DNA of 64,000 nucleotides from Membranipora membranacea. Its lineage: Eukaryota > Bryozoa > Gymnolaemata > Cheilostomatida > Membraniporidae. The notes beneath the pieces are model-generated. The model was not told the origin of the DNA. It did not search any database and saw only the letters and a program-made list of their open reading frames with translations. Each line of letters opens with the position of its first letter. The first letter of the stretch is position 1. Positions 9,001 to 61,033 of the stretch are shown piece after piece. Location of the stretch: contig OU612069.1 of NCBI GenBank assembly GCA_914767715.1, forward strand, positions 4,526,001-4,590,000. The letters run 5' to 3'. The position numbers and the translations under genes are program-made.

Positions 9001-11375
9001 ATCACTCGCACATACAAATCTTCTGCGAATAAGTATAGCTATACTCTTAATATTTACAAGTAGGGGAAGATCTTATGAAGTCATTTGCCGAACAATCAAG
9101 CAGGCCTATTGAGATTTTCAATCTTGGAATATTTTTCCGTAAAGTAATTGTTATTATTATAATTACCTAACTATGGATTTAATTACTAATTTTTTAAGAA
9201 TAATACGGAATCTTCAAGTGGGAGATGTGGGATGGAAGTCAACAAAAGTATTTTGATATAGAAAAACATATTATTGTGATATTGATAGTAGGGCTTACGG
9301 TTAGAAGATGTGTCTTTGCCCATTTAAGCCTGCAATACCAGACTAAAATCCAATTTTTACAGCACAATTGGTGTGAACTTGATTAGTGCTGCCAAAAAAA
9401 TGAATTTACTATGATATTCAAGAGCCTGTCTGCAAAAATGTCTGACAAACAACAAAACCGATAAGGTGGTAACAATTATTTTAATTATTTTGTCTTTTTT
9501 TCCTGTGACGGTAATTATTTTCTCCTTTTTGTTTTTGTAAATACTTTTGAGAGAGAAACTGCTTTAGTTCATAACATTAAGAAAGTTTAGCGGCACATCT
9601 GGCAGTTCAATGATGCAATGAAAAATAAAGCTGTGTTGATACCTTTAGTCAGTGTCGATTTTTATTTTTAGGCACTCACCACCAGTTAAGTGGCTGACAG
9701 GATACCCGACTGTCAGCCTGTGTCCATGCGGACACAGTTGGGGGGACAACCTGTACTGGACCGGTATAGACGGAAAGGCAACTTGTTTTATTGGACAGAC
9801 CGAATTTGCTGAATAGGCATGGGTGGATAGTCAAAACGGAATGCCCGACTTGTTCAGCTTGATCCGAAGCCTTTACCGACTGGCCCTCGTGAAATTACAT
9901 TGTTGCTAGCATGGTGCCATTATGCTGAGAACAGCTTAAATTAAGAGATTGAATGTGCCAGTTAAAATTCTTCATCCACAAGAAGAGATGTTAGAGCTCG
10001 TGTAAAATTTACACAAATTTGGAGCAGTCAAGTGCTCTAAATAGCAAGATTGCTCTTGTATGATGACTGTAATGACTAAATACTTTAAAACACCACCTGT
10101 ATTACTGACCCTTATTTGAGCAGACCTAAATAGACCTAGATGAGCATGCATGCAATGACTGGTTCGTTTTCTAGCTTGACTGATCAGTGTAAACATCCCT
10201 CAATATCTAGCCCACATTTGGTGATGCTCACTTCCTTTTGCCATCATTGATCTAAGCCAAGATCTTACCAATGCGACGCCTATCGAATTAAGTCACAATA
10301 TATCGAAACAGTCTTTTAGAAACCAATCTGATCAAACACCTATTTTCTCTTGACATACTCATTCGAGAACAATCTACAGCAGCCTGTCTAGCTATCCTGT
10401 ATAAGGAGAGCAAGTTGTGATACTGTTGAGATATTTGAATACTAGATGTATAAAAATGACAAAAAGAGAAGGTAATAAAAATTTTAAAATGTCCAGTTAT
10501 GTCTTTTCTCTTTACATGAGATCTTCAATTCAGAGTCGATCAATGAAACTTAATAGATGACCAATTTTGAATTGTGTGCATGATAAATATTGCTAATATT
10601 GTTAAATTGTTAATAGTTGATCGTAATATAATTGCATATGTATGTGCTTTCATTTTCCTTACGCCTAATTAAATTGATGATTCGACAACTAAATTATTTG
10701 CACTTAAAACCGGAGTTCCCAATTTTAAGTTTTCCTCAAAGGAAAGTTATTGTAATGGGGTCAGACCAATGTTTTCCTGACCTCTTTTAGCGTCGCTGTA
10801 GGGAAGCGCATCTCGGATAATCAGAGGTACTACTGTTGACTCACATGTTTGTCTCAGATATTCATAGGTATTTCTAGTGATGTGAGTTACGTGATTCAGA
10901 TGTGAAACTCAATCTATAATTGCTTACTAAAAATATAGACACAAAATATAATGCTCAATAAATCTTGTTTTCTAGTGATGCATGCTATGCGATTTAATTT
11001 ATCAATCCATAGTGACTTTTCACTCCATCCATAAAAAATGTGGAATAATCACTAGCCTTAGCTTCTGACTGGTATAATTTTCATGCATTGATACTCAATG
11101 CATCAAAGACAGATGTTATGACAGTCTCATATTTTGATTTCGTGTTGATTATCTGTAACTAATTTTTTAGGGCATGTTGTCCTCAAACTCTCTGATAAAC
11201 TTAAATATTTAGGAGTAATTTTACTTAAAAAGATGAGGTTCAAATCCAATGTCAATTAGATTGAACAAAAGGTAACCCAGTCATAGCAAACTTTAAGAGA
11301 AATAACCAAACTCAGAGGGAACAAACTAATTGTACAAAATGCCTGATATACTACTGTTTCAAGCATCTGACTCAC
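6053..11375. other. Intron between LRR exons C and D
   Basis: About 5.3 kb of intron. Positions 6170-6860 hold a LINE-B remnant. Positions 6943-7160 match 25725-25920. Positions 7140-9480 match 16035-18140, and 9290-10590 match 780-2249. Positions 10591-10775 match the flank at 4433. Positions 10776-11375 are the next copy of the unit boundary and LINE-B remnant. The short open frames in this stretch are not conserved between duplicate copies, which argues against coding function. Confidence 0.65.
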
Positions 11376-18140: not shown

Positions 18141-20259
18141 ACTGTGAAAATTATTACACAGGGTAAATTAGTCCAAAGATTGAATATTCCACTCAATTTC
18201 CTCATTGCTCCAATGAATATATTTAAAGTAGTCCTAAGAGTGGATAACAAATGCTTAAACATCCTAAATCTAATTTGACTTAAAGCTGTCACAAGGCAAT
18301 CAATTCTATCATCAAGCGGTACCGTTATTTATACCTTGAACAGTATTCAAATGTATATCAGTGATGATGTAATAATTGTTTGAAAGAAGGTTGTATCCTT
18401 AACCATGTGGATTCATATTCCTTGGGTGGCTCTGAGGCTGTTATTTGAGATTACTGTAATGTTGTTAGTGTGCACACCTAATTCAACCTGTTGAAGGCGA
18501 GAATTAGGCTATTATTCATATTGTGTAGCTTGCTGTATGGTCATAACCTTTGTGTGTGATACTACCATGGCTATGATGATTGTGTATACATTTTGGTTTC
18601 TTATTTGTACATATTTTTTTTATTTACGTGTTCTGCAGCTAGCTGCCTACCAAATCTGTTTCTGAGCTTGTACCTAACTTTGAGAAGCCTAGGTGATGAC
18701 AGTGATATATAGAGTTGTTTCTTCTAAAATCTTTCATTCAAGTAAGTTTTAGCAGACGGCAAGTGTCGTTATTAATGACTTCTTATTTTTTGTGATGTTT
18801 TTATTACGTTCTCTCAAGCAAAGTTTTACTTGTTTTACTCTTTCACTTGAGCTTTTGAGCAGGAAATCTGAGAGTAGCCACGTCTTTGCGTCTTGATCTT
18901 GAATAGCTTTCACAGCACAATCAGTTCCTAATTCATAATAAATAAACTATAATCAATAAACTGGCTTGCGCCATAAACAAAAGTAAAATTTAACCCTGTT
19001 GTCAGGGAAACACCACAGCCACTTGGATTTGATAAAAAGTTGAAAAGCAATAAATGTATTACAGAATAGGTGCTCAATTAGTCTGTGTCCCAATCTCTTA
19101 CAACTGTTTCAGTCCAGTGTCCAGCAATGCATTATAAGTAACACAGAGCAATACTTAGTGACTCTGTCAAGGTATGTAGGCTTATTATGATACAATACTG
19201 ATTTGATATAAATGTGTGGTACCCAGTCATTAGGAAGAGCAGTGAAGTGAAAAAGTTATGTTTGTCATCTAACATGTCAGCTCTTTGTTGTTTGATCTCA
19301 ACCAAAGTTTGTATGCAGTACATGCCTGGCACTGAGAATTTTACTCTGAATAATAAAATAAAATATGACTGTGTATACAGAAGCTTACTGAATCAGACGA
19401 ATGATTACTGAAAATAAGCAAAGGCTCTCAAAAGTTATTGATCCTACTAATCTGTGACTTTCCCTTGTACAGAGACAGCTAGAGCTTGTTACTTGTATCA
19501 TCACAAAATGCAGCGGTGTTTCTTAAATCAGTTAATCATTGATATACAGGCAGCTGAATAGAGTGCTATATTGTTGATTTAAGGTTGATTGTATGATGAG
19601 ATAGATCTTGACGAAAACTTCCTGAGAAATTTAATCCCCTTGTTTTACAAAATTGTGCCCATTTTCTACCTCAACAGGTATTTTCCAATAAACCCTTATT
19701 AATAAATGTTTTATTGGGCTTCGTGAAATATTGAGAGAATGAAAACAGATTTTACATGGAATCACTGGTTGCCAAGAAATTCACATGTAAAGTTTGTTCA
19801 TGCGAAAGTTTACAAGATCACTTTGCAGTGAAAGTAAGCCAACGACTATCTGAGTGCTAAATTGTGAGTTCAATACTTGCAACAGGGCCAACGATACCAA
19901 GTGTCACCACAGCTGCTATCCCTACAAATTCAATACAACTTTACCTCGACTTGATTTTTTCAGGCTCGACCTCATCTTGGCCGACAACTGTAATGTAAAA
20001 TGATAAGTTATCCTTTTTTTTCAGTTATTTTTTTGTTGTGACAGCTCATGCCCGCCCAATTAATTGTTGATTGTTTTATTCGTTGGTTAATTTTCTAATC
20101 AAGTTTTACCTAAAACACGCCTCCAAGACCCAGTAAATTTATTAATTTGCGAGGTCCCGTTGGAGGGAGGGATGGGGAGGGGGGGGGGGGCTTACACCGC
20201 CTCTGTCAAACCAAAAAAGCTTTATCTCTTTAACCCAAGAGTTTATTTGGTGTTGAAAC
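18141..20259. repeat. Segmental duplicate of 23935-25695
   Basis: Positions 18141-18420 are a LINE-B remnant. From about 18480 the sequence matches 23935-25695 almost continuously, including ccacaactttgcgtcttgatcttgaat-like and gcaacagggccaac stretches. A G-rich tract (12 Gs at 20179-20190) lies close to the end of the match. No gene is supported. Confidence 0.72.
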
Positions 20260-22133
20260 TGCGCTGCACAGGATAGTCAATGGTGACAGGATCACATCTG
20301 AAAGCTAAAAATCCCTCCTGGTTAGGAAGCCCTAACCTAAGCATCCCTGATTATCACAATAGACATTATTTTAAATGACTTAGATTTAGATATGTTTATA
20401 ATCTTAGCAATCTTAGAAGTGGTGCCCATTTCATATTTTCTTAAAAGTTAGTAATTGATAGATCATTGAACTGAGGAAGTTCCTGACATTTGACGGGACA
20501 ACCTGTACTGAAAAGGCATAAGCAGATGGAAAATTTGATTTAATGGACAGACAGTTTTAGCTGGATGGATATACCAAATTGAATGGCCAATTTTTTTTCA
20601 GCTCAATGACCTCCTCCCACTTGCTCTAAATTAAATGACATTGGTGGCAAAGCGTTTTTGGACTGATCAATTTAACAATCCACCCGGGAAAGAGGTATGT
20701 GTTGGGTATACCATGAATTGGCTACATTTTTATAGAAACAGAGGGGCAACAAAAATAATAACCTAGTATACCACCTGTATTATTGAACCTTATCGGAACA
20801 GACCTAAATAGACCTAGATGAACAAACATGCAATGGCTGGTTCATGCCACAAAGTTAAAATTAAACGCCTAAAAAGCTCAATTCATCCTTATATTATCAA
20901 ATATGGCACTTATCTGTACTTCTTGTGACAAGCCTATTAAGACAATAATAGGGGAATGAGTGACAAAACCGCAGACTGATCAGTTTAAACATTCCTCCTC
21001 ATCTCTAACCCACATTTTGTGAAACTCACTTTTAATTGAAATCATTGATTTGAGTTTCATATATTGCCAATGCAACGTCAATCGAAGCAAGTCACAAGTT
21101 ATTGAAGCAGTCTTTTAGAAACCAGTCTTTGATTTAGTCGATCACTTATTTTCTCTTGACATACTCATTTGAGGTCAAAATACTGCCGCCTGTCTAGCAA
21201 TTCTGGATAAGGGGGCAAGTTGTTATACTGTGGAGAATATTTGAATACTAGATGCATAAAAATAACAAAAAGAGAAGGCAATGTTAAGTATAAAATGTCC
21301 AGTCATGTCTATTCACATTACATGAGAGCTCCAATTCAGAGTCGATCAATGAAACTTAATAGATGATCAATTTTGAATTGTGTGCATGATAAATATTGCT
21401 AATATTGTTAAATTGTTAATAGTTTATCGTAATATAATTGCATATGTGTGTGCTTTCATTTTCCTTACGCCTAATTAAATCGATTATGCGACAACTAAAT
21501 TATTTGCACTTAAAACCGGATTTGCCAATTTTAAGTTTTCCTCAAAGGAAAGTTATGTAATGGGGTCAGACCAATGTTTTCCTGACCTTTTTTTTATCGT
21601 CGCTATAGGGAAGTGCATCCCGCTTACTCAAAGGTACAACTGTTGCCAGCATCTGTCGCACATGTTTGTTTCAGATATTAATAGGTATTTCTAGTGATGC
21701 AAGTTACGTGACTCGGATGTGAAACTCAATCTATAATTGCTGACTAAAAATATAAGCTTATTTTACAAATATAAATGCTGAAAAAACTAACATTGCTATT
21801 GATGCTAGTTATGCAATTCAATTTAACAACTTTCACAGTGACATTTCACTCCATCCGTAAAATATGGAACATTCAGTAGACTTGTATAATTGTTATATAT
21901 TGATACTCATTGCATCAAAGACAGATGTTATGATAGTGTCTTATTTTATTTTGATTTGATTTTCTCAAACTAACTTTTCAGAGCATGTCCTTCATGAAGT
22001 TCAAACAAATGTTAATATTTAGGAGAAATTTTAGGTAAAAATATAAATTTAAAATCCCATGTCATTGAGACAAAACCCACTCATAGCAAACTTTAAGACA
22101 AATCATGTTATTCAAAGGTAACACACTAATTGC
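20260..22133. repeat. Duplicated intron unit upstream of LRR exon B
   Basis: Positions 20270-20470 match 11690-11890. Positions 20490-21400 match 1370-2249 and 9750-10590. Positions 21401-21570 match 4433-4616 and 10591-10775, giving one of the empty sites for the LINE at 2250. The unit boundary recurs at 21571, followed by a LINE-B remnant at 21860-22030. Confidence 0.68.
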
Positions 22134-22964: not shown

Positions 22965-25900
22965 CTGTTGAGGAGAAATAATGTAATGTTAAAATACCAT
23001 GCAATACAGCTTGTCAGTTCATGGAGCAAAAACAATTGAGCGACAAACTTGATTAATGAGAGAAAGTTTTAGATTGATTAATTAACTAGGAAGAATTGTA
23101 CCTATCAGATCTTGATTTTGGTGGCTGAATAGATTTGGGTTTCCTTTTAATGCAAGTATCGGAGGAGTCAATAGTAACCATAAATAAATTGAGTTGCAAT
23201 CTGACGTTTCAGATATGAATAAGTATTTATAGTGATGCAAGTTATGCGATTCAAATTATCAAGTGACGTTTCACCCCATCCATAAAAAACTGACTAGCAT
23301 TTGCTTCTGACTGGTATAATTGTAATAAATTGTTACTCAATGCATCAAAGACAGATGTTATGACCTCGTCCTATTTCGATATCGATTTGATTTTCTCAAA
23401 CTTATTTTTCAGGGCATGTCCTTCAAGCAGGCTGACAAACTAAATCATAAAGCAATTTGAGAAAAAATGAGATGAGATAAATGTATGAACTTTAAATCCA
23501 ATGTAAATGAGATTGAACGAAACCGAACTCAATCAGAGCAAACTTTGAGAGAAATCGTAAGTTTTGAAATGGAACGTTAGCTGCAGTCGTGTAGGCAGGG
23601 GTAAATAAAACCAAAGATTGAATATGCCACTCCATTTCCTTATTGCTCTAATGAATATATTTAAAGTAGTCCTAAGACTCAATAACAGATGCTTAAACAT
23701 CATAAATCTAAATTGACATAAACCTGAGACAAGACAAAGGCATATCAATTCCACCATCAAGTGGTACCATTGTCTATACCTCTCAACAGTTTTAATATGT
23801 ATATAAGTGATGATGAAATAATAGTTGAATTAAGGTTGTATCCCTAAACATGTTGATTCATAATTCTTAGGTGGACCTGTGGCTATTATTTGAGATTACT
23901 GTAATGTTGTAAGTCCGGAAACCTAATTCAGCCACTTGAAGGCAAGAATTTGGCTTTTATTCAAATCGTGTAGCTTGCTGTATGGTCATAACCTTTGTGT
24001 GTGATGCTACCATGGATATGATAATTGTGTATACATTTTTTTGTTTCTAATCAGGATATATTTTCTTATTTAAGTGTTCTGCAGCTAGCTGCGTACCTAA
24101 TATGTTACTTGGTTTGTACCTAACTTTGAGGAGCCTAGGTGATGACTGTGAGATATAGAGTTGTTTCTTCTAAATTCTTTCATTCAAGTAAGATTTAGCA
24201 GAGAGCAAGCGACGTTTTAAATGACGTTAATTTTTGTGATGCTTTTATTACGTTCTCTCAAGCAGAGTTTTACTTGTTTTACTCTTTCACTTGAGCTTTT
24301 AAGCAGGCAATCTGAGAGTAGCCACAACTTTGCGTCTTGATCTTGAATATATTTCACAGCACAAGGAGTTCCTAATTCATAATAAATAAGCTATAAGCAA
24401 TAAATTGGCTCGCGCCATAAACAGAAGTCAAATTTATCCCTGTTGTCAAGGGAACACAACGGCCACTGGGATTTGATAAAAAATTGAAAAGCAATCAAGC
24501 TATTACAGAATAGGAGCTCAATTAGTCTGTGTCCCAATCTCTTACAACTCAGATGTTTTTGTCCAGGACCAGTAATCCATTATGAGTGACACCAAACCAT
24601 ACTTAATAACTCTGTCAAGGTATGTAGGCCTATTACGATACAATATAATTCATTCAATATATGTGATGTACCCAGTCATTACGAAGTGCAGTGAAGTGAA
24701 AAAGTTATGTTTGTCATCTAACATGTCAGCTCTTTGTTATTTGATCTCAACCAAATTTTGTATGCAGTACATTCATAGCACTGAGAATTTTACTCTGAAT
24801 AATATAAGAAGATATCACTGTGTATACAGAAGCTTACTGTAGTAGCCGAATGATTACTGAAAAAAAGCGAAGGCTCTTAAAAATTATTGATCCTACTAAT
24901 CTGTTACATTCCCTTGTACAAAGACAGCTAGAGATTTATAGTTCTATCATCACCAAAATGCAGCGGTGTTTCTTAGATCAATTATTCATTGATATACAGG
25001 CAGCTGAATAGAGTGCTATTTTGTTGATTTAAGGTTGATTGTATGATGAGATAGATCTTGACGATAAACTTCCTGGGAAATTTATCCCCCTTGTTTGACA
25101 AAATTGTGCCCATTTTCTACCTCAACAGGTATTTTTCAATTAATTCTTATTCATAACTGTCTTACCAGGCTTCGTGAAATATTAAGAGAATGAAAACAGA
25201 ATTAACCTGGAATCACTGGTTGCCAAGAAATTCATATGTGAAGTTTGTTCATGCGAAAGTTCACAAGATCACTTTGCAGTGAAAGTAAGCCAATGACTAA
25301 GTGAGTACTAAATGGTGAGTTCATTACTTGCAACAGGGCCAACTGACACCAAGTGTCACTACAGCTGCTATCCCTACAAATTGAAAAAAAATTAACTCGA
25401 CTTGATTTTTTTCAGGCATGACCTCATATTGGCCGACAACTAAAATGTAAAATGATAAGTTATTCTATTTTTTCAGTTAATGCTTTTGTTGTGACAGCTC
25501 ATGCCCGCCCAACTAATTATTGATTGTCGTATTCGTTTGATAATTTTCTAATCAAGTTTTACCTAAAACATGCCTCAAAGACCCGGTTAATTTATTAATT
25601 TGTAAGGCCTGTTGGAGGGGAGAGGGGTGGCTTACAGCGCCTCTGTCAAATCAAAAAAGCTTTATCTCTTTAACCCTAGAGTTTATTTGGTTCATTGTCA
25701 GAAGATATCCATAGTGTGGTCATGCTGGTTGTCTAAATGCCAATAATACTGATAAGACTAAGGCAGGAAGTAATTTAATTAAAAATGATTATCTGTTGCC
25801 AGAGACCTGTGGAAATTGATAATGCATCTTTTATACAGCATATCAACACTACTCTGGATCATCAAATTTTTGCTGTGGCTGGCTGGTGGCTTTAATTTTG

Positions 25901-25975: not shown

Positions 25976-26519
25976 TCAAAATCAAAGACGGCAGCCCCCA
26001 GGCCAAGAAGCAGAATCTCAGTAGATGATGATTTTGATGAGATTATTAATGACAGTGACAGTGAAGTAGATTCTTCTGGATCAGATGATGAAGGTGAGTT
26101 GTTACTCATTTCATTTTGGAAGTTTTTATCAAACTAGCACTCTTTACAGCCAAGATACAGCCTGTGAAGAGGGTCTCTCAAAAATCAGATTTATTTTGCT
26201 GATTTATTGGTGTCAATGTAAACAACACTCACAGCCCTCACCTCCTACCTCAGTGACAACCTAAATATATTACGCCCATGCTAAACTGTCAGACCATCAT
26301 TCTGGTGTATTGTAACTGACCATGAGTACCTTTTTTCTGTACATTAGATATCTTAGAAAATGATGGGATTCCCAAGATCTGATGATGCATTGAGTCAGTT
26401 GAGTCATACTTGTGTGACTCACTAGGCTTACTAGGACTTGTCTCTAAATGCATTCATTTGTATATTATTTTGTTTTAGACAGTGATCCAAATTACATAGA
26501 TGCTACTGGTGACTCAGAT
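25976..26519 (+). pseudogene. piggyBac transposase pseudogene, 5' part (acidic N-terminus)
   Basis: Two exons fit. The first is open from 25976 to a GTGAGT donor after 26093 and encodes ISVDDDFDEIINDSDSEVDS, the acidic type of N-terminus common in piggyBac transposases. The second starts at 26479 after TTTTAG and runs to 26519, where the CACTA element was inserted. Frame is kept across the intron (phase 1). An upstream stop at 25973-25975 and the lack of an ATG mean the true start lies in an earlier exon or has decayed. The family call rests on the 3' part at 37.3-39.3 kb. Confidence 0.7.
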
Positions 26520-27178
26520 CACTATAGATTTTGTTCGCGACGTACAAGGACTTATTTGTAAGAGTTATCTTCCCAAATAACAATGTAGTCCATGCCATTC
26601 GTTGTCAGGATTTACAAAGCAATATTGATACAGGATAACAATACCAACTTCAAACAATTGCAACTCGAGATGTATAACTGGTGATATTTATATATTCATT
26701 AGGAAACAGCACAAGCTAAGATTGCACAGCAGTTAAGTCGAGATGACAAGATCTATTTTGTCTCAGAATTGCAATAATTGAGACCGGGTGCAAAATATGG
26801 ACTTTCTTTTTTGGTTTGAATTTTCTCAACCAAGTGATCATTTTGTGATGTTATTCTATTTAATCAGACAAAATCTGCGACTCGAGTTGTATAACTGGTG
26901 ATATTTATAGATTCATTAGGAATACAACAGCACATTTTGAGATTCAAACATGGTAGTTTATTACGTGAAAGCTGAGATTGTAAATAGGCATGATGGATTG
27001 AAGTGAGGAGTTAAATCACAGCTGACAGAAATTTTTCATAATCAAGCGGTCATTGATTCAGAAAATAATTCGCGAAATTCATACTGACACAAGCCCTCAA
27101 AAAATATACCTAGTATTGGTGGTCATCAAAATACACGACAGCCTAATAAGTAAGCATTTGAGAAACTATTATCCAAAG
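26520..27178 (+). repeat. CACTA left terminal inverted repeat
   Basis: The inverted match to 36790-37345 covers essentially the whole interval, with one block of about 120 bp present only on this side. Within it a subterminal motif, gtataactggtgatatttat, occurs near 26668 and again near 26893. Its inverted counterparts lie near 37157 and 36930. Such subterminal repeats are the usual binding sites for CACTA proteins; that role is inferred here. Confidence 0.85.
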
Positions 27179-27372
27179 ATTGTATGACATTTACATGAAA
27201 GCTGAAATTACAATTAGGCTTGATGGACTAAAATAAGGCTTTACTTTAACTGTCAGAAAATGTCTTATCAATGATCACAGTGGAAATCAGGTTTACACTA
27301 TTATATTGAAGTTGAAAATTAATTTAAGCGTAAATTAAATATTGAATGTCCGGTTTTGTTTCTCATGAGCAA

Positions 27373-29451
27373 TTAAAATGTACAGTTTTTGTTTCCGAAC
27401 AAATGGCTTGGCATCCGTTTGCGTCGCACACTACCAACAACGCCATCAAGTTGTCTCTCTCTCAATTTAACTTTATCCACAGTCCCGTGTAAATACGCCG
27501 TGCAGGACGGTAAACGAAAAGATGGAGGATGGCATACTCCTTCATCCTCTGAAGACATAAGGTCTGTATGTAGCTGTAGGTTATTGATGTCGTCCATGCT
27601 CAAACCCAGGCCTTTTTTGATCCTCGTAATCCTATTCCGTAATTTCTAAAATACAGAGCAGAGAAGATTAACATATTTAATAAATTGCAAAAGTTCTAGG
27701 AGCGGATGGATGGGAAAGTTGGCATTGTATTATAAATTCTTTGTAAGAAGCTTGGCATCGTCAATATTGCTATAACGTGAGAGGGATCCCAGATTTAAAG
27801 TTCAGAGAAAGCTCTGTTTTTGTTCAAAGTTAAAAACTTTTAGCCTCATTCAGAAATCTACTTGACTAAGCAGTTGCCAACAAGTTTCTACAGCAGCCGT
27901 CCCAAGAAATAATCCCTAATCACAATTAGCTGTCAGCCGATCAATACAGTCTAAAAATTCCTATCTAGTGATATGACAAATTGGCTACATCAGTTCGCTT
28001 TTGATTGATAAGAATAAAATATTTGCACATAATAAATTCACCTACATTTTTCTTTTTTGTTGACTTAGATCGGCTACCCTTTCTTTTGTCTGTATCTTTA
28101 ATTTTGTGCCTTTCTACATCGTACTTCCGTCTAGTCATAAGCATGATATCCCTGTTCCGTATCCTTTCTATCGGAATTGGCAACTGACGAATTCTGCTGG
28201 CATACTCGAGAGCCACTTCCTGGTTCGCAGTATGTTCGTATCTAGAGAAAGATAGTGAACAGTGAGCACAAGCGATAATATGACAGCAGAAGTGCTTGCA
28301 TTCCAATTTTTTCCGAAAATATAATTAGCTTAGATGAGATTATCAATCCGCTATGATTAATAGTATATAGAAATATATATACATTTTGTCCAATAAATTA
28401 TAGTCCAGTTGAATAGCGCCAAATTAGCAGGGAAAAAGTATTTTTATTAATGGTTGCAAGTTGCATCTTAATTGAACAAAAATTCTTTGTTAAATCATAC
28501 ATGGAATAAACCTTTAAATAACCAAAGAAACTGCTCCAGGTTATAAGCTTAGAAATGAGCAGCTCAATTAAGAAATTAAGACTGAAGTTATGACTTATCA
28601 GATTGAGGCCTTGCTGACGCTGGCACGCGAGCCTTGCGTAGGTTGGTATGATGTCAAAAACCATAAAAAAGCTTAAAACTCATGCTATTTCTTCGAGATT
28701 TGATAAAACAAGTTTTAATCACAGAGACTAATCCAAGCCATAAATTTGAAGGATATTGAAGCAGAATTCGAGGTGGAAAAGGTTGGCTTCACTCTAATAG
28801 TTTCATTAACGAAAAATGCCGAATATTAGTCGACAACTCTGGTGTGACCTCACGCCCAGGCTTTCCAATCTCATGAGTGAATATTGAAGGGGTCAACTCC
28901 AATGCCTCATAGCATTACTGGTGCTCCAAGATGGTCAATTTTGGGCTCATTTTGATGCATGATTAGCTTGAGAAACAGCCTTTATAATCCCAATCTGAAA
29001 TTCAAAACATTAATCACAAGACTGCTGATATTTTAAAATATGAGGACTTAGGGTAATCCTGGTCAGTGCAGCAATTTATCAGAAGAATTTTTTATACTTA
29101 CAGGAGTGAAAGATCATATTTTTGCCGCAGATATGCGTAGCAGTTGTAGATTTGTGTTCGATAGAATTTTAGATCCGACTGAGGCAAATAGCGTAAATGT
29201 CCCGCTCTCGGCGTTGCTGGGTCAGCGATAATGGATGACCTTCCTAGTACAGGGTCTGATAAAGAATAATTGTTAGTACATTCCATGAGGGACTCTCTGG
29301 ATAAAAGTATCGCAGAAGGTGGTGTATAAAATATCGAAGCTGTATGATCAATCCTTGTACGTGGGGTAGAGGTGCTGGCAGCGCCATGCCTATAATGACT
29401 TCCCTCGTCATCCGAGCTAAAATCAAAAGCTGTTGTATCTTGCAGTGACAT
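27373..29451 (-). CDS. Second gene of the CACTA element: 272-codon protein of unknown function, 3 exons
   Basis: Exons are 29102..29451, 28046..28241 and 27645..27373 (stop). Introns are GT-AG (donors GTAAGT and GTAGGT), and phases 2 and 0 match at both joints. A second donor 4 bp further on (GTGAAT) would break the frame into exon 3. The start is the ATG of MSLQDTTAFDFSSDDEG. Residues 1-20 are acidic. About 95-145 look helical, including DLKFYRTQIYNCYAYLRQKY. Residues 163-182 are strongly basic. Exon 3 has a second acidic patch, MSSEDEG, and then VDKVKLRERQLDGVVGSVRR. I do not recognise a family. By position it is the equivalent of the accessory DNA-binding protein of two-gene CACTA elements (TNPA in plant En/Spm); that role is inferred only. 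Confidence 0.72.
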
Positions 29452-29734
29452 ATTTACTCATGTGGTTAAATGTTTATGAGTAGACCATTTATCCCAACCA
29501 ATTTATATAGCTCCAATCCTGTAAACCTTATCTTGCCAGCTTAAATTGAATTCAATTGTTTATTTGTATGACAGTAATTATGATCCACCAAGCGGCGGGG
29601 AAACAATAGGAAAATTTTATAATGAAGAAACATGGTGCATCTGGGTTTTCTGACATCTGAGCAAAATAATTCGTCCAAACTTTGACACCCAAAAGTTTTT
29701 CACCATCACAGTTGTGGATAGTAGTTAAGTAGGA
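29452..29734. promoter_or_regulatory. Shared divergent promoter region of the CACTA element
   Basis: 283 bp separate the start codons of the minus-strand 272-codon gene and the plus-strand transposase. No other coding sequence lies here, so both transcripts must start in or near this gap. It is AT-rich, but I see no unambiguous TATA box placed for either gene. Confidence 0.5.
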
Positions 29735-32700
29735 ATGGATGCTACTAAGAAAAGAAAAATTATCAGCTCCTCTTTGCGCGAAGGGTACAGTAATGCCAGT
29801 ACAATAAGGTTTCTCAAGGAAGTTCTTGAAGAGGATATTCCAAACAGATGGAAAGACTTACTAACTTCTGCAGGTATGCAAAGGATTGTGCATTTATTTC
29901 AATTTCTTGTGGTTTTGTGTATGATTGTCTGTCACCTCTTTACAGCCTGCTATATGAACATATCTCAGCAAAACGTTATAAACCTTATCTAGAAACCGGC
30001 ATTCCCCCTTTGACGTGTGCAAGACTTAGTTATATCAAAATGAAAAAGTAACTTGTAATGCAAAATTATGTATAAATTATTTGTTCTTTACCTAGGTGTT
30101 CAGGATCAGTTCTTAAGTATATGGCTATGTCAGAAATGTCGTTGCTGTCATAAAAAGAATGAGGGAGCATGTGGGAATATGTTGAGAGTTGGGAGGAGAA
30201 GACAAGCCTGCGGAGCCGACCTGAAGTACTCAGTGCTATATCCTTACCGACCAATCTCAACCTGGATCGTGGATATCATAACTCGTTATGGGGCGCAGAA
30301 CCTAATTAGACTGTGAGTTGCTTAAAATGTACAGCATTTTTTTTAGCCGCAACTGCATCCATTCTTCACAATTTATTTCAATGGTCTCCTGAGTTGACAG
30401 TTAATTTCTAGCTTTATATATTTGCAATTATTCAACAGCCATTCCTGTTAAAGTATTTGATGCATACTATCTTGGCATGACCCTGATTGTACAGTGCTTG
30501 TAAAGATCCAAGCTCTTCCTATCCTTGACATCGGGCATAAATTGAGTAAAATATTTGTGGAAATATTTTTAGCTGCAACTGCATCTTAGCGCAGAGGTAC
30601 CCTCATAAATAATCTTAGCCAAATTCTTTGGCCTTAGCCCATTATTCACAATTCAATAGGTTCCTGAGTTGACAGTAAATTTCCAGCTTTATATAATTGC
30701 TATTAATCAACAGCCATTCTAGTTTAATGAGAGTAATTTGATAAAGTAATTGATGCATACTATCTTGGCATGACCCTGATTGCACAGTTCTTGTAAAGGT
30801 CCAAGCTCTTCCTATCCTGGACATCGGGCATAAATTGAGTAAAATATTTGTGGAAATATTTTTAGCTGCAACTGCATCTTAGCGCAGAGGTACCCTCATA
30901 AATATTCTTAGCCAAATTCTTTGGCCTTAGTCCATTCTTCACAATTCAATAGGTTCCTGAGTTGACAGTAAATTTCCAGCTTTATATAATTGCTATTAAT
31001 AAACAGCCTTTCCAGTTTAATGAGAGTAATTTGTTAAAGGACTTAATACATATTATCTTGGCAGGAACCTGATTGCACAGTTCTTGTAAAGGTCCAAGCT
31101 CTTCCTATCCTTGACATCGGGCATTTAATCAAGTAAAGAAATTTACGGAAATGTATTTAGCTGCAACTGCGGCTTAGCCCAGAAATTCCATTCTCGCCTA
31201 GCGTCATCATTATCCAATTCTTTTCTTCCAACATTCAGCAAAGCATTTAAATAACAATTCTTCTAGATTTGATTACAAGCTTGATTTTGTATTTCCCTCA
31301 GATGCAATAGTTGGAAAGAACGTGATAGGAGTGATGCTTATCGGGATTGGTTTGATGGTAGCCAATTTTCCGAGCACCGTGACTGGATCAGGGACGAGGC
31401 ATTCGACCTATCATTGTGTCTGATGATCAATATCGACTGGTGGCAGAAATTCAAAAGAACTGTACACAGCCTTGGTGGTATCTACTCCTCTATTCTAAAC
31501 CTTCCAAGGGATATTCGCCAAAAACTAGATAATATCTTTACTCTAGGTATGTGTTCGTCAATATTGATATTAGTCTGTCTTGCAAAATTAACGCAGCATT
31601 GTCTTATCTCACAGTCTAAGAAGGAAGTTTAGTAATGCTGTGATAGCGGTTGGGAGAGCAATTGGTCTCATGCTTGAATCTATTTAATCATGGACCTATT
31701 TATGTGGTATAGGATTATGACAAGCCCGGTAGAAAACGTACATAATTTTGGCTACCTCAGGTACAGATTTTTGCTTATCTTTGAACAGGAAGTTGGCCGG
31801 CGCCAGCCCCTCATTTATAAGACTATGTTATGCTGAAGTATAAATATTTGAAGGGGAGGCAGGGAGGCGCTGCTTCCTCTAGAATGATAGATAAAGTGGC
31901 CTTAAACACTATTATTGAATAATCCAAGTCAGGATCGACCTTTTTTTATAACTTATAACTGACTGATCAGATCCGACAGGATGAGCTTAAAGCACCCCAT
32001 CTGGTGTCCCCCACCCGTCAAGGGTTTCATTCTAAACTAACATCTCCCTGCCTCAGAGTATATATGCCCTTTTTACCACAGATTATTTTGATGTTTACAG
32101 CAATTATCCCGGGGAAGGAAGAGCCACAATACGGGGCTCAGATGAATAGCATCCTGCAGCCTTTAGTTGAAGAGCTTCAAATATTAGATGAGGGCATAGA
32201 AGTATGCGGGTTGAAGGTACGAATGAGGGCTGTGATCTGGGCCTGTGACCTCCCTGCTATTAGAAAGACGCTTGGACTTCTATCTCATTGCGCAAACAAG
32301 GGTGAATATGCATGATACAAATAATTATCAGTGATCGAGAATAAGATACATGGGTAAAAAAAAACTGACTCCGACCTCTTTGTTTCTTGGCATTATTTTT
32401 GCCTAGGTGAACATAGCAGAAGAACAAAAATTATTGATTATAACATGATTAAACTAATCTGGAATGTTTGTTTGATGTGAATGTTCCATGCAGAATTGTT
32501 AGTATTGTTGTGATTGTGTGTCACTGATTTTGGGTGAAATTAGAGCTGTTTAAAAACATTAATTTTGGGTCATTTAAGAGCTCAAACTGTGCAGGAATAT
32601 CAAGTAGATATATTTTGGTGTAGTATTGCCATAGTATAAAAAGGCAGGGTAAATCCATCGATTCGCATCCCTAGACCTTTGCATGATAGCAGTAGATGCA

Positions 32701-35700
32701 GTTGCTTGTACTATCAAAGCTCCGTTGATTTCTCTCTGCAATGGTTTGGTCTCTTATTTCATGTAAATAATAATTTTGTTAGAAAATAAAATAATGACAG
32801 TAGTCATATTTGCAGGGTGTTCCTTCTGCACAGCAGACATGATCACAGATGATTTACAGTCAAAGCTAAAAAGTGGTGCTTTGAGAACCGATGTGCATAC
32901 TAGGGAAGTGGCAGAGAGGGTGCAGCTCATAGAAGATAGCAATCTACCTCGGATCACGGCCAAGAACCTCGAGAGGGAGACTGGAGTCAGGTACTCCATA
33001 CTGAACACGCTGCATTATCACAAGCCTATATCAAATCATGTAGTCGAGCCTATGCACAACCTTCTACTAGGTAATTTTATTATCAACATCACTTCCTCAT
33101 TTTTGATACACCAACTAAAAACTTTATCTAAAGAGTAAGGATTGTCCCTTGTAGTTGTCTGCCTATTAGGGTCCCCATATAGACTAGAGACCAGTGTAAG
33201 ATGCTTCGCTTGACCAATTAGTGCAGAGGAAATCATTTGAGATGATAAGTAAATTTAACACTCATCTCATTTCAATCTTCCATTTGGCTCAGCTGTAGCC
33301 CCCATTGCCAGTAAAAATGGTGCCTGTGTCTGCATGGCAAAGTAAATCGAAACTGACTAAGACTTTTTTGTCCTTATTACAGGTATAACAGATCGCGTTT
33401 TTAAAATGCTACATAATCAAGAAGTTCTCGACTGCAAGAAATTTGCCGACCGTCTAATAAACAAGGTGGAGACCGGTACCATGTGTCGAGTTAGGCTGGG
33501 CTTCACCTACATGACGGCCGACGATTGGTTGCAGCTAACTCAGGTCGCAGTTTATTCAATTCAGACACTCCTACCAGAGGACTTACATCGTATGATATGC
33601 CAGCTGTGCGAAGCCATCCAAATCTATACCTCAAGGTAAAATAGTTGGAAATGTTCTTTTTTATTTTGATTCATAATCCTGTTGCCAATTAGTTTGAAGG
33701 AAAGTGATGGTTGGTAGTGCTAGATTGTCAAGCCTCTGTTGATAGTCATCAGAGAATGGCAGCATAATACGAGTGGCAGAGCTTTGGATCCTCTCAGTCT
33801 TGTTTTGCTGGTGTTTGATAGCAGATTGTACAGTGCGGGCAGGCGTAGGCAACTACAGACTTAATATAAGCTACTTAGAAGGTTTTCATGCCAACGCTAT
33901 CAATGCTCATGATTTGAGATATCTCATTAAGTATAATCGTTGGGAGCATTGAGATATATTATAGTCAACATGATTACTGAATGTCAGTGTGTTGACTATG
34001 ACAACGCCTAAAACTTGTTGTGCTCAGGGGGAGAAAGAAAGAGATTATCATCTCCACATGTTACACCAAGGTGCATAACAGCATTTTATTCCATGGTGAT
34101 GTAAGCTAGCATTTTTCCAGTTTAATTCAATAAATCATCGTTTGGGATATCAAGCATAAGGCATGGAGTTCCATCTCGATCATTGCCAATTTGTACGACC
34201 ATTATCTTTTCAATGCTTCATCATCCATCCAAGTGATGCGGTACAGGGGATGTCAGCAGATATTATTTTTGTTTGAATGGAGTGGTGTTGAATTCATGGA
34301 TGTTAAATTTTATCTTTAACAGATCAATCACTGAAACAGACATTAGCAGAGCAGCTGGGCTACTTCAGCTTTCTCTAGGAAGATACGTTAGAACATACAA
34401 TGACTGTCCACCAAACTTTCATATGGCCTGCCACCTACCAGCTACAATACGTCGTTTCGGACCAGCCCATGTGTAAGTTTAGATAAATAACCATCAGATG
34501 AAAGCATAGTAACTGAGTAAATTTTTGTATGAAAGAGGATTTGTCAATGGCCATTGATTTTTAGATTGATAAGAATGTGGAATGTCTTTCACGATACATA
34601 CCAACATTTTAATTATACTGGGATTTGAAAAATTACCGGTACCAGATAATCCAACAAGTAACAATCAATTTGGATAGTACAATTATCCTAGAGTGTTTAG
34701 ATAGTCTATGGATTAATATTATACCTTGCAATCTGAGCAATTTTTCTGGAGCCAAAATTTGGAAATTCAGTGTGCAAATTACTAGACACTACTTTCTTAA
34801 TAAAAGACAAAACTTTAATTACTATTCAATAATATTCTGTTAATCCTACCTGGCTCAAATGTAGTGATATATATCAAAGGCATATTTGCAGCACCTATGA
34901 AAGGAACGAAGGGTCTTCAAATTCACAAGCAAGCATGCACTATTGTTTTATGGCAACAGCTTACTTTATATGCAGGGGGGGGGGGGGGGGAAATACTGCT
35001 GAATCTACTGCATAATCAAACAATATATGGTTATTAGCTCAGAAAAAAAACTTGATTACTACATAATCAGTAGACCACCCCAGGTTTTTATTAGCTATGA
35101 TAACCAGTAGGCAAGCATTAGCACCATAATTTCAGTGCAAAAGACCTTTATTGGTTGTATTAATTTATATTATAATATATTTCAGATACTGGGCATTTTC
35201 TTTTGAGCGGAAAAACGGTCAAGAAGGGAGACAGGTGTTTAATAACAAGGGAGATATAGCAGGACAGGTATGGTTACATCGATTCCAACACAAATCGTCC
35301 AAAAATGAGTTTGTTTACGTCTCTATTTATTTATCTATCTATGAGTTAAATTTCAGGGAAATATCTCTCACACTATCATTCCAAAAGCTTATCACCATAA
35401 GGTCATTGGTATAGTCATGTTTTAAAACGGCATAAATCTCTTGAGAAGTTGTAAACAACAATTAAATGTTAGAGTTAGCACCTCAAATAGTCCTGCAAGT
35501 TAAGCACTCAGGCTTAGATACCTGGGTGATTACTGAACTAATCCTTATTTGTATCACCAAATTTTCAGTAGGCATGATAGTGGCTATCATTGTTTCGGTA
35601 TCAGGATTAACTTATACATGTTAGCATGAGGACAGAAAATGAGAGGACTGAAAAAGTGGCTGTATGAATATCAAATTTAAAGTGACTGACCGAACATGAC

Positions 35701-36559
35701 GGCTAGAAGATGTCGTGGCCCGGAAATTCTGAAAACAATTCATTCATAGTTTCCATAATTTTATTAATTGCAGCTCATGAGGAAAATAGACAATCGAGCT
35801 CAGTGCAGTACAAGCAGCACACAGCCTACAGCGGTAGATGGAATCATTGGTAAACCAAAGGACTTGGCAATGCGCCACATACGACCGGAAGAGCTCACAG
35901 AATGTGTGAGTTATCTTTTCACAAGTATCTTTTCTCTTCACACTTTTTTTTGTGTATTATGTAATCTTCTAACAGTGTTTAATTCTAATCCAAAGTATCT
36001 ATTGGCATATCCCAATCATTAAATAGTATAGAAATTGGCATAGATTTTAGTCTTGCAAATTTTGTTGTTGTTCCACAGTGCATATGTAACCATGATTATA
36101 ACATCTAAATATATACTAGTAAAAAAATTATGAGGATAATAGCTGAGAACACTATGCGCCTAATTGTTAACAATATCTAGCTGTCTTTAAGGTTAATGCC
36201 AAAACTGTATCTGCGCTGTTTGATGGAAATTCCTTTGCCTCTATCAATCAATTAATCCGAGGATTGACGTTAGATTTTGTTACAAGAACTATGCTGTGAA
36301 ACGACTTCAAAATTTTCACTAGTGTTTCGCTATATTCTTGCAGATGGGGGATCAGAGAGTGATATTCACCGAGGTAATACGTGGTGCAGTTGTCCAGAGA
36401 GAAACGATCAAGAAGGGTGCTGCTGTGTTGTGTGCTGGTGTTTATGGGATCGTTGATAGGATGTTATTGGTGAATGGTCAGGTTGTTGTGTTAGAGATGA
36501 AAGAACTGTGTGAGAGAATCCTTGAAGGGCCAATTTTCCGAATGTGGTCCGGTGTTTAG
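29735..36559 (+). CDS. TNP2-type (CACTA/EnSpm) transposase, 10 exons, 629 codons
   Basis: Exons: 29735..29873, 30096..30312, 31302..31546, 32101..32301, 32816..33070, 33383..33635, 34323..34472, 35186..35267, 35774..35905, 36344..36559. All introns are GT-AG, all nine phase joints fit, and no stop occurs before the end. An N-terminal cysteine cluster (CQKCRCC...C, residues 58-85) probably binds zinc. The transposase core reads NIDWWQKF (D164), LPRDIRQKLDNIFTLA, IIPGKEEP, INSFL-like MNSILQPLVEEL, CDLPAIRKTLGLLSH, a CSFC pair (269-272), VEPMHNLLLG (345-353) and FSFERKNG (E494). These are the landmarks of the tnp2 family, which excises and reinserts the element. The aspartate expected in the D-x-x-H motif is glutamate (E345). 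It shares a divergent promoter region with the minus-strand gene. Confidence 0.92.
30345..31170. repeat. Tandem repeat of about 294 bp in transposase intron 2
   Basis: The marker agctgcaactgcatcttagc or close variants starts at 30345, 30571, 30864 and 31159, giving steps of 226, 293 and 295 bp. Each unit also holds gttgacagtaaatttccagc and tggcatgaccctgattg. About three full copies plus a shorter first one. No coding potential; intronic. Confidence 0.85.
33665..33900 (-). pseudogene. LINE reverse-transcriptase C-terminal fragment in transposase intron 6
   Basis: Read on the minus strand, this gives TERIQSSATRIM and YQQRLDNLALPTITFLQ. This matches the thumb/connection pattern (IQxRATRxI...RLxxLxLPTL) found after the polymerase domain in many non-LTR retrotransposons. 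It is short, has no start, and lies within an intron of the CACTA transposase, so it inserted into the element or its ancestor. Confidence 0.55.
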
Positions 36560-36789
36560 GCAGCTAGCATGTGTGTCAAGATATGTAAAATGTGAAGCTG
36601 TCCAAGTTTTCAGATACTCCAAGGAGTCAGAGATTTTACATGTGTTGCTGCCTAATAGAAAGAAAAGTTGTTAAATAAGATGGCTGGCATTGGATTTGTA
36701 AGACCTCAGAAAGTTTTTTGCTGCTTACAGTTTTATTTGCAAAAGGTAGCTATAAATCTTACATACCTGGCAGTTCACTGTATTTACAC

Positions 36790-37345
36790 ATTTGTACAAA
36801 TTTTAGATAATAGTTTCTCAAACGCTTATTTATCAGGCTGATTTAAATCCTCATTCTAATCCATCATGCCTAACAATAATTTCAGATTTCATGTAATAAA
36901 CTACACGTTTGAATCTCAACATGTGCTTTTGTGTTCCTAATGATTCCATAAATATCACTGGTCTTATAATTCGAGTCATAGACTTGTTATGTTCTGAAAT
37001 GACAGAATAATAATATGGCAAAATGTTCACTTGATTGGGAAAATTCAAATATAAAAAGAACGTCCATATTTTACACTCGGTCTTAATAATTGCAATTCTG
37101 AGGCAAAACAGATCTTGTCATCTCGACTTTACTGCTGTGCAATCTTAGCTTGTGTTGTTTTCCTTATGAATACATAAATATCACCAGTTATACAATTCCA
37201 GTTGCCATTGTTTGATGTTGGGATTGTTATCCTGTATCAATACTGCTTTGTAAATCCTGACAATGAATGGCATGGACTACATTGTAATTTGGGAAGATAA
37301 CTCTTACAAATAAGTCCTTGTACGTCGCGAACAAAATCTGTAGTG
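36790..37345 (-). repeat. CACTA right terminal inverted repeat
   Basis: Its reverse complement starts CACTACAGATTTTGTTCGCG and follows the left end for about 550 bp. It differs from the left repeat mainly by lacking one block of about 120 bp. It begins about 230 bp after the transposase stop codon, so the transposase transcript must end in or near it. Confidence 0.85.
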
Positions 37346-39270
37346 GATAATGAAAGTAGAGTGGGAGATGGCCCAGGGAGTGATGCTGGAGAAGGTAGTG
37401 ATGGTGCAGGTAGAGAACCAGGTCACATTGGCAGAGATATGATTGATCAACAACTATCATCTGAAGAGGAGGAACCAGGTATGTTCACCGTGCTAATTAT
37501 GTCCAATGTGATATAGATATATACACATATATATGAAATATATATAATCCATTACGGTTGTGGCGTTTATTTTATAAAATGCCTTCTATTGCTAGACTTA
37601 CATGCGTCAGATAGAGTTGTTTATTGAAACATGCGAGCCATTGAGACATGAATGTTTATATGAACACTGGTGCAAGGGTTACAGGTTATAGCCTCACTTC
37701 ATGCATAGGCCTATAATATGAACTATTTTTGCTTGAATAGAACCCGCTGGTAGGGGACGTGGTGGTAGGGGACGTTGTGGTAGAGGACGTGGTTGAGGTG
37801 TTCGTGGTGCTGCTGGTAGAGGTGCTGGTGTTAGAGGTGCTTATGGTCGTGTACGGGGTGGGAGAGGACGTGGTCCTGGTGTGAGACGGAATAGACCTGA
37901 TGGAGGTATGATGTCGACAATTTCGTTTTTGGCTTTTTATCTTTTTCACCTACGTATGCAACTGCTCATCACACTGAGCAGAAAAAACTTTGTACCTCTG
38001 AGTATAGAACATGTATTCATAAGTTTATGTCTATTTATCTATCTCTATGCGGTTTCTTACCTTCACGTTTATATACATGTAGATAAGATACCACAGTGAC
38101 GCCATGCGGCGAGCACTTACCTCCACGTTTATATATATGAAGATAAGTTCTCTTTGCATGGTGACACATGATAATATGTAGTTATGTTATAAATCAAAAC
38201 AGATTATTGTTTTGTTTTTCTAGATGAATTCGTCTGGCAGATGGCTACTGACGCAGCTCGTCAGGTACCTGACGGTACTGCTCAGCATGGTGTAAATACA
38301 ACAAAACTTCCAGCAGGATGTAGTGTGATAGATGCATTCTCTGTAATTTTCGATCGTACCTTTTACACTACCGTCAAATCTGAGACCAACCGCTACGCTC
38401 GAAGTAACATGTCTGACCCACAGGCCGAATCATGGAAAACTGTAACACTGTCATGCATGTACCGATTCTTCGCCATAATCCTTCACATGTGTATCGTGAA
38501 AAAAACAACCATAGCAGACTATTTCTCCACAGATCCTGTACTGTATAGTAGCTTCGCTAGTTCAATTGGCATGGACCGCAACCGATTCCAGCAGATACTT
38601 AGGTACTTGCACCTGAATGACAATGCCAATCACGTACCCCGTGATCAGGATGGCCATGACCCACTTTTCAAAGTACGGCTGATATTTGACAGTCTGTTAG
38701 CTAAGTTTTGAGAGTTGTATACTCCTTGGTCAAATCTAACTGTCGATGAAGCGATGTGCCCATATGTGGTAGGGTAGGATTTCGGGTTTACATGAAAAAT
38801 AACCAAACAAGTATGGAATGCGAGTAGAGTGTGTATGCGAATCTAACAGTGGCTATGTATGTCAGATGGAAGTCTACACAGCCACAGGAGACAACACCGT
38901 AAATGGCCTGGTCACCCATATACTCAATCCCTTTGAAAATAAAAATACAGAGTTTACATGGACAGACGCTACTCATCTCCTATTCTATTCCGTGAGTTAC
39001 CGACTAAGAGCATTTATGCAGTTGGTACTTGTATGGTAATTCGTTGAAATTTGCCAGGTGACTTTGCACAAAATCTGCAGAAGGGTGAGAGGGTAGCTAG
39101 GCAGTGTGGTGATATTCGGGCTACTAAGTGGAAGGACAAGAGAGACGTAATAACTTTGTCCACCGTAGATGCTGGCGTAATGATCGACACAACAAATCCC
39201 AGGTCTAGATTTCATGATCACCAGGTAATGAAGCCGCAGACTGTTCTAACTTACAACAGCAAGAAATTTG
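37346..39270 (+). pseudogene. piggyBac transposase pseudogene, 3' part
   Basis: The exon split by the CACTA element resumes at the duplicated GAT and continues in the same frame to a GTATGT donor after 37478. Exon 37741..37905 encodes an RG-rich stretch (RGRGGRGRCGRGRG) but has an in-frame TGA at 37794. Exon 38224 onward carries the piggyBac transposase core: TTIADYFSTDPV, RNRFQQILRYLHLND, LYTPWSNLTVDEAMCP, YVCQMEVYTATGDNTVNG, MDRRYSSPILFREL and WKDKRDVITLSTV, ending at KPQTVLTYN. There is a stop at 38709 and several later frameshifts and stops, and the C-terminal cysteine-rich tail is missing. It is dead as a gene. Confidence 0.85.
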
Positions 39271-39552
39271 AAATCCTTTGTAGACCATTGTTAATCGGAC
39301 AATATTTAGCTTTGTATCGGCAATATATTTTGGTAATGAACTTTCATGGGGGATGGGGTTGTGCACGAATGTCATTACTGTGGTACATATTGGATGGTTT
39401 CACATGTAAAATACCATATTAACAGCAGCCCAATATTTTGAATCTTGAATTCAATCAATCTAAAAGTCATGTCATATCCTCTACCTCCCATGTCAAACCT
39501 CATACCCAAACTCTCATACTTGATGGAAATAATTTTGAACGGCCTGAAAAAT

Positions 39553-59571: not shown

Positions 59572-60072
59572 AGGAATACAACAAAGTTGTATTTCTTTTG
59601 TTTTGGTTGGATTTATTATTATTAGGAATACAACAAAGTTGTATTTCTTTTGTTTTAGTTGAGTTTATTATTATTATTATTATTATTATTATTCGTCTCG
59701 CAACACTTTTTGTCGCATCTATAAGTCAAGAACTACCAGGCAGAATTTGCTGTTACTTGGTCACAACATAGTTCCATATGTGTAGATGAGAAATTACTAA
59801 ATGAGTTTTTGAATCGTTATGTAATACTTGCTAATTACACTAATTAGTGAAGGTGGTTTTGCCTTTTTTAACGTTTTTACCCAATTTCATTCTGTTATAT
59901 GTCAAGAACTACTTGGCAGAATTCGATGATATATGGTCACAACATAGTCCCATATGTCAAGATGAGAAATTGCAAAACAAAATTTTGAACTGTTATGTAA
60001 TATTTGCTAATTACACTAATTAGTGGAGGATGTTTTTTCGATTTTCTTATGGTGATATCTTGAGAACAAATC

Positions 60073-60590
60073 ATGCGATTGAGTTGAAACTTAGGATACA
60101 TAGGTTATGGCATATACCGAATCTTATGACATCGTCAATTTTAATGTCACATGACCCGATAGCCAAAATGGCCGCCAAAAACATGAAATGGCTGCCGATT
60201 AACAGTTCTTAACATGCGATTGCGTTAAAACTTGGGATATGGGGGTTATGACATATACCGAATCTTATGAAATCATAAATTTTCATGTCACATGACCCGA
60301 AATACAAAATGGCCGCCATATACTGCAAATTGCAGCTAACTAACAGTTCTTATCATGCGATTGAGTTAAAACTTGGGATATGGGCGTTATGACATATACC
60401 GTATCTTATGACATCATCAATTTTAAGGTCACATGACCCGAAATCCAAAATGGCCGCTAGAGATAGTAAACTGCTGCCGATTAACAGTTCTCATCATGCG
60501 ATTAAGTTACAACTTGGGAGATCGGGGTTTTGGCAGATACCGAGTCTTATGACATCATCAATTATGATGTCACATGACCTCGATATTCAA
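60073..60590. repeat. 141-bp tandem repeat, block 1 (four monomers)
   Basis: The marker atgcgatt starts at 60073, 60214, 60355 and 60496, exactly 141 bp apart. Each monomer has a match to cttatgacatcatcaatttt, cacatgacccgata and aaaatggccgcc. Confidence 0.93.
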
Positions 60591-61033
60591 ATATATTGGT
60601 TGTATTCCTTTATATTTGCTTGCAAATATGTTTACCGTTTCTAGTTATTATTATTATTTTTGCAACACTTTTGTCGCATCTATAAGTCAAGAACTACCAG
60701 GCAGAATTGGATGGAACTTTGTCATAAGATAGTTCCATATGTCTAGATGAGAAATTGAGAAATGAAATTTTAAAATGTTATGTAATACTTGCTAATTACA
60801 CTAATTAGTGAAGGAGGTTTTGCCTTTTTTAACGTTTTTACCCAATTTCATTTTGCTATATGTCAAGAACTACTTGGTAGAATTCGATGATATATGGTCA
60901 CAACATAGTCCCATATGTCAAGATGAGAAATTGCACAACGAAATTTTGAAATGTGATGTAATATTTGCTAATTACACTAATTAGTGGAGGCTGTTTTTTC
61001 GATTTTCTTTTGGTGATATCTTGAGAACAAATC

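Follow-up and report, generated by a model that had tools for sequence, protein, structure and literature searches.

A young, nearly complete and probably defective transposon of the CACTA/EnSpm type in the bryozoan Membranipora membranacea

Animal CACTA elements in print include families of Daphnia (PMC2884549), Spongebob of Hydra (PMC4298943) and SmTRC1, a CACTA-type element with a full-length copy (PMC1636069). The transposases of the EnSpm, Mirage, Chapaev and Transib groups have a set of motifs consisting of DDE, C(2)C and H(3-4)H (PMC12730594), and the domain DUF1258, which represents the Mirage group, clusters with Transposase_21 and has conserved RNase H-like active-site residues (PMC3985635). 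Here we analyze an element of 10,826 bp from Membranipora membranacea that lies within a stretch of 64,000 nucleotides (GenBank assembly GCA_914767715.1, contig OU612069.1, positions 4,526,001 to 4,590,000 of the forward strand), hereafter the window, in whose coordinates all positions are given. The element is very likely a young, nearly complete, probably defective transposon of the CACTA/EnSpm type (CACTA-Mirage-Chapaev group), a member of a multicopy family inserted in an exon of a probable piggyBac-type element and flanked by the 3-bp direct repeat GAT.

Maize En/Spm and the plant CACTA elements likewise have CACTA ends, a multi-exon DDE transposase and a second protein, TNPA, which is however an alternative splice product, whereas the second gene of the bryozoan element is divergent (PMC4158355, PMC1636069); their 3-bp target duplication corresponds to the GAT repeat of the window copy. 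The transposase, 629 codons as read here, is also shorter than the plant mean of 1,163 amino acids (PMC4158355), and its match to Transposase_21 is weak. With SmTRC1 and the animal TRC elements, the bryozoan element shares this weak similarity to Transposase_21, an internal tandem repeat, a second, fast-evolving protein and box A (with E for D here), but TRC elements have CCC ends and 2-bp duplications as opposed to CACTA and GAT, which places the bryozoan element outside the TRC type (PMC1636069). Motif I has the W/G order of three of the four fungal sequences, not the usual one (PMC1636069). The likeness to the Mirage group concerns the transposase, which passes the DUF1258 cutoff (PMC3985635). 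Compared by description, the fungal EnSpm/Plavaka elements have in common with it CAC..GTG ends and the C(2)C and H(3-4)H motifs, and their 3-bp duplications are paralleled by its GAT repeat (PMC12730594); unlike in those elements, no TET/JBP gene was noticed here, where it was looked for only through Pfam searches with the two proteins. The CACTA families of Daphnia pulex, also residents of an animal genome, are likened to this element by description and not by sequence (PMC2884549).

The bounds of the element and the features of its arms are as follows:

26520..37345, no strand assigned, whole CACTA element, 10,826 bp (ends and inverted arms)
26517..26519, no strand assigned, GAT, left copy of the 3-bp direct repeat (sequence)
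37346..37348, no strand assigned, GAT, right copy of the 3-bp direct repeat (sequence)
26520..27018, plus strand, left terminal inverted repeat, 499 bp (arm alignment)
36839..37345, minus strand, right terminal inverted repeat, 507 bp (arm alignment)
26659..26713, plus strand, subterminal repeat, left arm copy 1 (repeat comparison)
26876..26934, plus strand, subterminal repeat, left arm copy 2 (repeat comparison)
37141..37202, minus strand, subterminal repeat, right arm copy 1 (repeat comparison)
36912..36976, minus strand, subterminal repeat, right arm copy 2 (repeat comparison)
36895..36900, plus strand, AATAAA in the right arm, 3' of the transposase gene
26957..26962, minus strand, AATAAA in the left arm, 3' of the second gene

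CACTA starts at 26520 and TAGTG stops at 37345, the inverted ends of CACTA/EnSpm elements. The window contains 27 CACTA/TAGTG pairs at distances of 0.5-20 kb whose 3-bp flanks match; of the 30 terminal bases, 29 agree in the pair at the element ends and 17 in the runner-up. The two arms are identical in 436 of 508 alignment columns, with 94% identity over the outer 187 nt; in a second alignment, the first 100 columns, at the tips, are the most alike (97 identical) and columns 301-400 the least (67 of 100). The inverted CACTA termini, the GAT on either side and the long terminal inverted repeats reported in a preliminary description of this DNA are thus all confirmed. Each arm additionally contains two copies of a subterminal repeat of approximately 55-65 bp; such repeats are a trait of CACTA elements, including those of plants. 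No further copy of the element was detected within the window at E<=0.01.

The arms enclose a transposase gene with the following features:

29735..36559, plus strand, transposase gene, 10 exons, 629 codons as read here (exon joins, Pfam, chain search, substitution rates)
29735-29873, 30096-30312, 31302-31546, 32101-32301, 32816-33070, plus strand, exons 1-5
33383-33635, 34323-34472, 35186-35267, 35774-35905, 36344-36559, plus strand, exons 6-10
31435..31437, plus strand, codon of the putative catalytic D164, exon 3 (published motif definitions)
32247..32249, plus strand, codon of the putative catalytic D250, exon 4
35205..35207, plus strand, codon of the putative catalytic E494, exon 8 (motif order)
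30449..31183, plus strand, 293-bp tandem repeat, 2.5 copies, intron 2

As first proposed, the ten exons join in one frame, free of internal stops over 629 codons (the other two frames contain 42 and 37), and all nine introns have GT-AG borders. GC content by codon position is 40-51% in both genes of the element compared to 35% in the transposase introns. A search for the longest chain of exons, which uses loose splice rules, maximizes length and ignores stops at junctions, yielded 2376 nt in the transposase region and 876 nt in the region of the second gene; the longest chains in 40 dinucleotide shuffles per gene measured 1908 and 591 nt, respectively, and no shuffle reached the observed values. 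Because the chains recovered only part of the assigned splice sites (9 of 18 for the transposase and 3 of 4 for the second gene), this search backs the coding content more than the exact joins. The Pfam search with the transposase produced a match to DUF1258 above the cutoff (E=1e-11; 45.3 bits, cutoff 33.1), and no solved structure was matched by sequence at E<=1. D164, D250, CSFC (the CxxC motif, 269-272), H470-x3-H474 and E494 succeed one another as expected, in exons 3, 4, 5, 7 and 8, such that C(2)C and H(3-4)H lie between the second D and the last E of the DDE triad, the arrangement that characterizes the CMC/CMCT group. The D, D and E that we take to be catalytic are putative assignments chosen in part from the order of the motifs. 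Motif I has the order D-W...G, and in box A, also present, E replaces D; this DW-type motif I is presumably akin to that of Plavaka-type proteins. Judged by its sequence, the 10-exon gene encodes a predicted DDE transposase of the CACTA/Mirage type. Intron 7 contains a run of 16 G (34975-34990); another such run, of 12 G, is located at 20179-20190.

The second gene is oriented away from the transposase gene:

27373..29451, minus strand, second gene, 3 exons (29451-29102, 28241-28046, 27645-27373), 272 amino acids

The stop-free join of the three exons in the preliminary description holds with one of two adjacent donors, AAT|GTAGGT, whereas the neighboring donor yields a stop. The 272-residue product showed no Pfam match at E<=1. 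The claim of a CACTA/EnSpm-type element that carries a transposase and a second, divergent gene therefore stands.

The search for further copies by the element terminus, suggested at the outset, was performed with the left 187 bp against the host genome (339,339,785 bases in 18 contigs) and gave at least 53 matches, 13 of which correspond to the internal repeat and three to the window itself; this number is a lower bound because only 40 of the 202 candidates were scored. We retrieved 14 stretches, namely ten (C8a, C8b, C11, C9, C4b, C4a and, from one end only, C7, C6, C2 and C8c) and four shorter ones (L025-L028). C8a and C8b are approximately 98% identical to the window copy over nearly the whole element and, since they share flanks, represent a single insertion that was later duplicated; in both, the sequence between the end of exon 5 and a point inside intron 5 is missing, and the transposase gene is interrupted by a stop. 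C11, C9, C4b, C7 and C6 have diverged further or been rearranged, and C4a, C2 and C8c include few or no exons in the part retrieved. The readable starts of the other copies are mostly CACTACAG; three C4a units lack the first bases, and C8a and C8b end in TAGTA. All compared splice sites of C8a are GT/AG except for the deleted exon 5 donor, some sites are altered in C4b and C6, and the comparison covers all but a few sites in the remaining copies. A pattern search matched 1 stretch in viral_contigs and 8 in genome_contigs, and none was confirmed as a relative.

Two arrangements among the copies are observations in their own right. C8a and C8b (L009-L012, G000:C8) are 99.7-99.96% identical to each other and lie approximately 306 kb apart, either by recent segmental duplication or through an effect of assembly. 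In the C4a region (L013/L014, G000:C4:5397700-5415700), derivatives of the element are repeated three times within 18 kb; at three starts, the first 162 bp are identical to the right arm of the window copy, and the units without the first bases are three others.

The number of differences in introns, counted without intron 2 because of its tandem repeat, indicates that, of the splits seen, that from C8a came last: 38/3634 for C8a, 39/3634 for C8b, 95/3636 for C11, 200/3654 for C4b, 95/1904 for C9, 107/1810 for C6 and 33/695 for C7. The claim of a recent copy is accordingly upheld in that the copy is fairly young, with 98% identity to C8a/C8b. Comparison of the two arms for age, also proposed beforehand, was carried out and proved misleading, since the arms had already differed before insertion, as seen in C8a/C8b. 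The left arm of the window copy lies within a stretch that is approximately 98% identical to the left part of C8a, yet the arm is 85% identical to the right arm of C8a, and its right arm is 86% identical to the left arm of C8a. The difference between left and right arms is therefore a trait of the family that predates the insertion and has no dating value; some copies (C4a, C9) have ends of mixed arm type. We also considered that all 62 arm mismatches arose after insertion, which predicts about six nonsense changes and 11 insertions or deletions in the two genes, assuming that both started whole; with one lesion seen, this was rejected.

That lesion is located in the last exon of the transposase gene:

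36344..36559, plus strand, last transposase exon as read here, 71 codons, with a frame that is shifted toward the end when compared with sister copies

In exon 10, there is a one-base length difference between the window copy and five sister copies (C4b has a 3-base difference besides), and the exon is read over 71 codons in the window copy, as against 108-110 in these five, which have their C-terminal part in common save for the last dozen residues of C9. The long exon 10 is thus found in five of the seven retrieved copies that bear this exon (four of them independent), which supports a longer original C-terminus; in the other two, L027 and L028, an earlier break ends the exon at 53 and 49 codons, respectively. 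Among the copies examined, that of the window is the most complete, and both genes are whole within the retrieved stretch in none of the nine others compared (the tenth, C2, has no exon). As read, the window copy does not have all of its genes at full length, the mark of an autonomous copy. Neither the term 'intact' nor the term 'autonomous', both proposed for this copy initially, is supported by the comparison: with exon 10 out of frame relative to its sisters, the copy probably lacks a normal transposase and is probably no longer self-sufficient.

Both genes show signs of past selection. For exons 1-9 of the transposase, the ratio of nonsynonymous to synonymous substitution rates (dN/dS) between the window copy and its relatives is 0.63 (C8a), 0.33 (C11), 0.41 (C4b), 0.31 (C9, 120 codons), 0.24 (C6) and 0.32 (C7). 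For the second gene, it is below 1 in all six computable pairs, namely 0.48 (C8a), 0.52 (C11), 0.09 (C4b, first exon only), 0.30 (C6), 0.41 (C7) and 0.29 (C8c). The set was compiled without C8b, which duplicates C8a, and C2, which has no exon, and for the second gene it covers part of the possible pairs. Because decay after insertion raises dN/dS, past constraint on both the transposase and the second gene is likely.

The element interrupts an exon located upstream of a decayed transposase gene:

26479..26519, plus strand, interrupted exon, left part
37349..37478, plus strand, interrupted exon, right part (171 nt open in one frame once both parts are joined)
38193..39419, plus strand, decayed piggyBac-type transposase (DDE_Tnp_1_7), three pieces (Pfam)

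Across the rejoined 171 nt, the other two frames contain 2 and 11 stops. The first DDE_Tnp_1_7 piece has E=1e-19, whereas the second (E=0.004) and the third (E=0.0005) are under the Pfam cutoff. From its position and its acidic sequence, the interrupted exon probably belongs to the piggyBac-type element. In the two stretches tried for the ends of this host element, none of the TTAA pairs reached 11 matching bases out of 16.

Several observations weigh against parts of this interpretation. The rejoined exon has no stop whether a single GAT or both are included, so that insertion into an exon is demonstrated and duplication of GAT is not proven; among the copies with both ends readable, a 3-bp repeat is found only at the window copy. 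C9 (L017/L018, G000:C9) has TGGG on either side, four matching bases in place of the expected three. The insertion represented by C8a and its duplicate C8b is flanked by GCT and GAC, shows no repeat and has the last base of the right end changed. As regards selection, the dN/dS pairs are not independent and the values carry no significance test; the second gene shows no synonymous and four nonsynonymous changes between the window copy and C4a, and ratios above 1 were obtained for the transposase in C4b-C9 (1.77; 3 synonymous, 18 nonsynonymous) and C4b-C6 (1.3; 6 and 28) and for the second gene in C8a-C4a (1.12; 1 and 4). The one-base difference in exon 10 could be an assembly error. Finally, the match of the transposase to Transposase_21, the tnp2-type domain, falls under the cutoff (E=1.3e-5; 24.9 bits, cutoff 28.6).

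Since DUF1258, which represents the Mirage group (PMC3985635), outscores Transposase_21, the element might be classified with Mirage instead of CACTA/EnSpm; we consider this assignment unlikely given that the CACTA ends and the 3-bp GAT repeat match EnSpm as characterized in PMC12730594 and PMC4158355. It is still less probable that the copy is intact and autonomous, either because the short C-terminus is tolerated or because the exon 10 difference stems from assembly. Such a reading would fit the absence of internal stops in the 629 codons and in the 272-codon second gene, the equal length of the aligned parts of exons 1-9 in C8a and C11, the position of all tested catalytic motifs upstream of exon 10 and the youth of the lineage, but it conflicts with the prevalence of the long exon 10 with its shared C-terminal part, the two exceptions being broken even earlier, and with the dN/dS relative to the nearest relative, C8a, which points to weaker constraint than do the values for the older copies. 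That the arms belong to a larger duplication rather than being element ends, as the segmental duplications in the window and the family (the shared flanks of C8a/C8b, the repeated units of C4a) might suggest and as the preliminary description had named as a refutation, can be dismissed because the ends occur with differing flanks at 12 other places (C8a, C4a, C11, C9, C7, C6, C2, C8c and L025-L028, with C8b set aside) and the window flanks form a single open exon.

For the CACTA/EnSpm-type transposon favored here, a cut-and-paste mechanism can be proposed, in which the element would have inserted into the exon of the probable piggyBac-type element and come to be flanked by the 3-bp repeat GAT. 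A divergent promoter between 29451 and 29735 would drive both genes, and the AATAAA signals inside the arms possibly end both transcripts. The RNase H-like DDE transposase would bind the ends and move the element, and the small second protein might bind the subterminal repeats or assist otherwise, as does TNPA of maize Spm. Probably devoid of a normal transposase of its own, the window copy may still be mobilizable by a working source elsewhere. Less probably, the element might represent a distinct CACTA lineage that combines plant-like CACTA ends, a Mirage/fungal-like DDE transposase (with the DW-type motif I and the animal/fungal box A) and a divergent, selectively maintained accessory protein without a recognizable domain, which would be an independent counterpart of maize TNPA.

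Elsewhere in the window, positions 1-25917 are a mosaic of diverged direct duplications, including 18161-20251 versus 23599-25691 (87% over 2113 bp) and 10178-11332 versus 20974-22132 (81%), and nested satellite arrays with units of 176 and 141 bp occupy 59720-61834, where a block of approximately 0.9 kb is itself repeated at 90%. An open frame of 199 codons (3709-4305, plus strand) resembles, by eye, the end of a non-LTR reverse transcriptase and has no Pfam match at E<=0.01. Pfam searches with ten other frames of the window gave no matches at E<=0.01, and scans of the window for tRNAs and against Rfam (gathering threshold) gave none either.

Together, these elements form a well-delimited CACTA family whose copies, all within a single genome, are of several ages, and in which arm divergence does not serve as a clock. 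The window copy illustrates that a lone copy can look intact, its open frame having hidden a frameshift that the sister copies exposed. The family also offers signs of selection on an accessory gene without a named domain.

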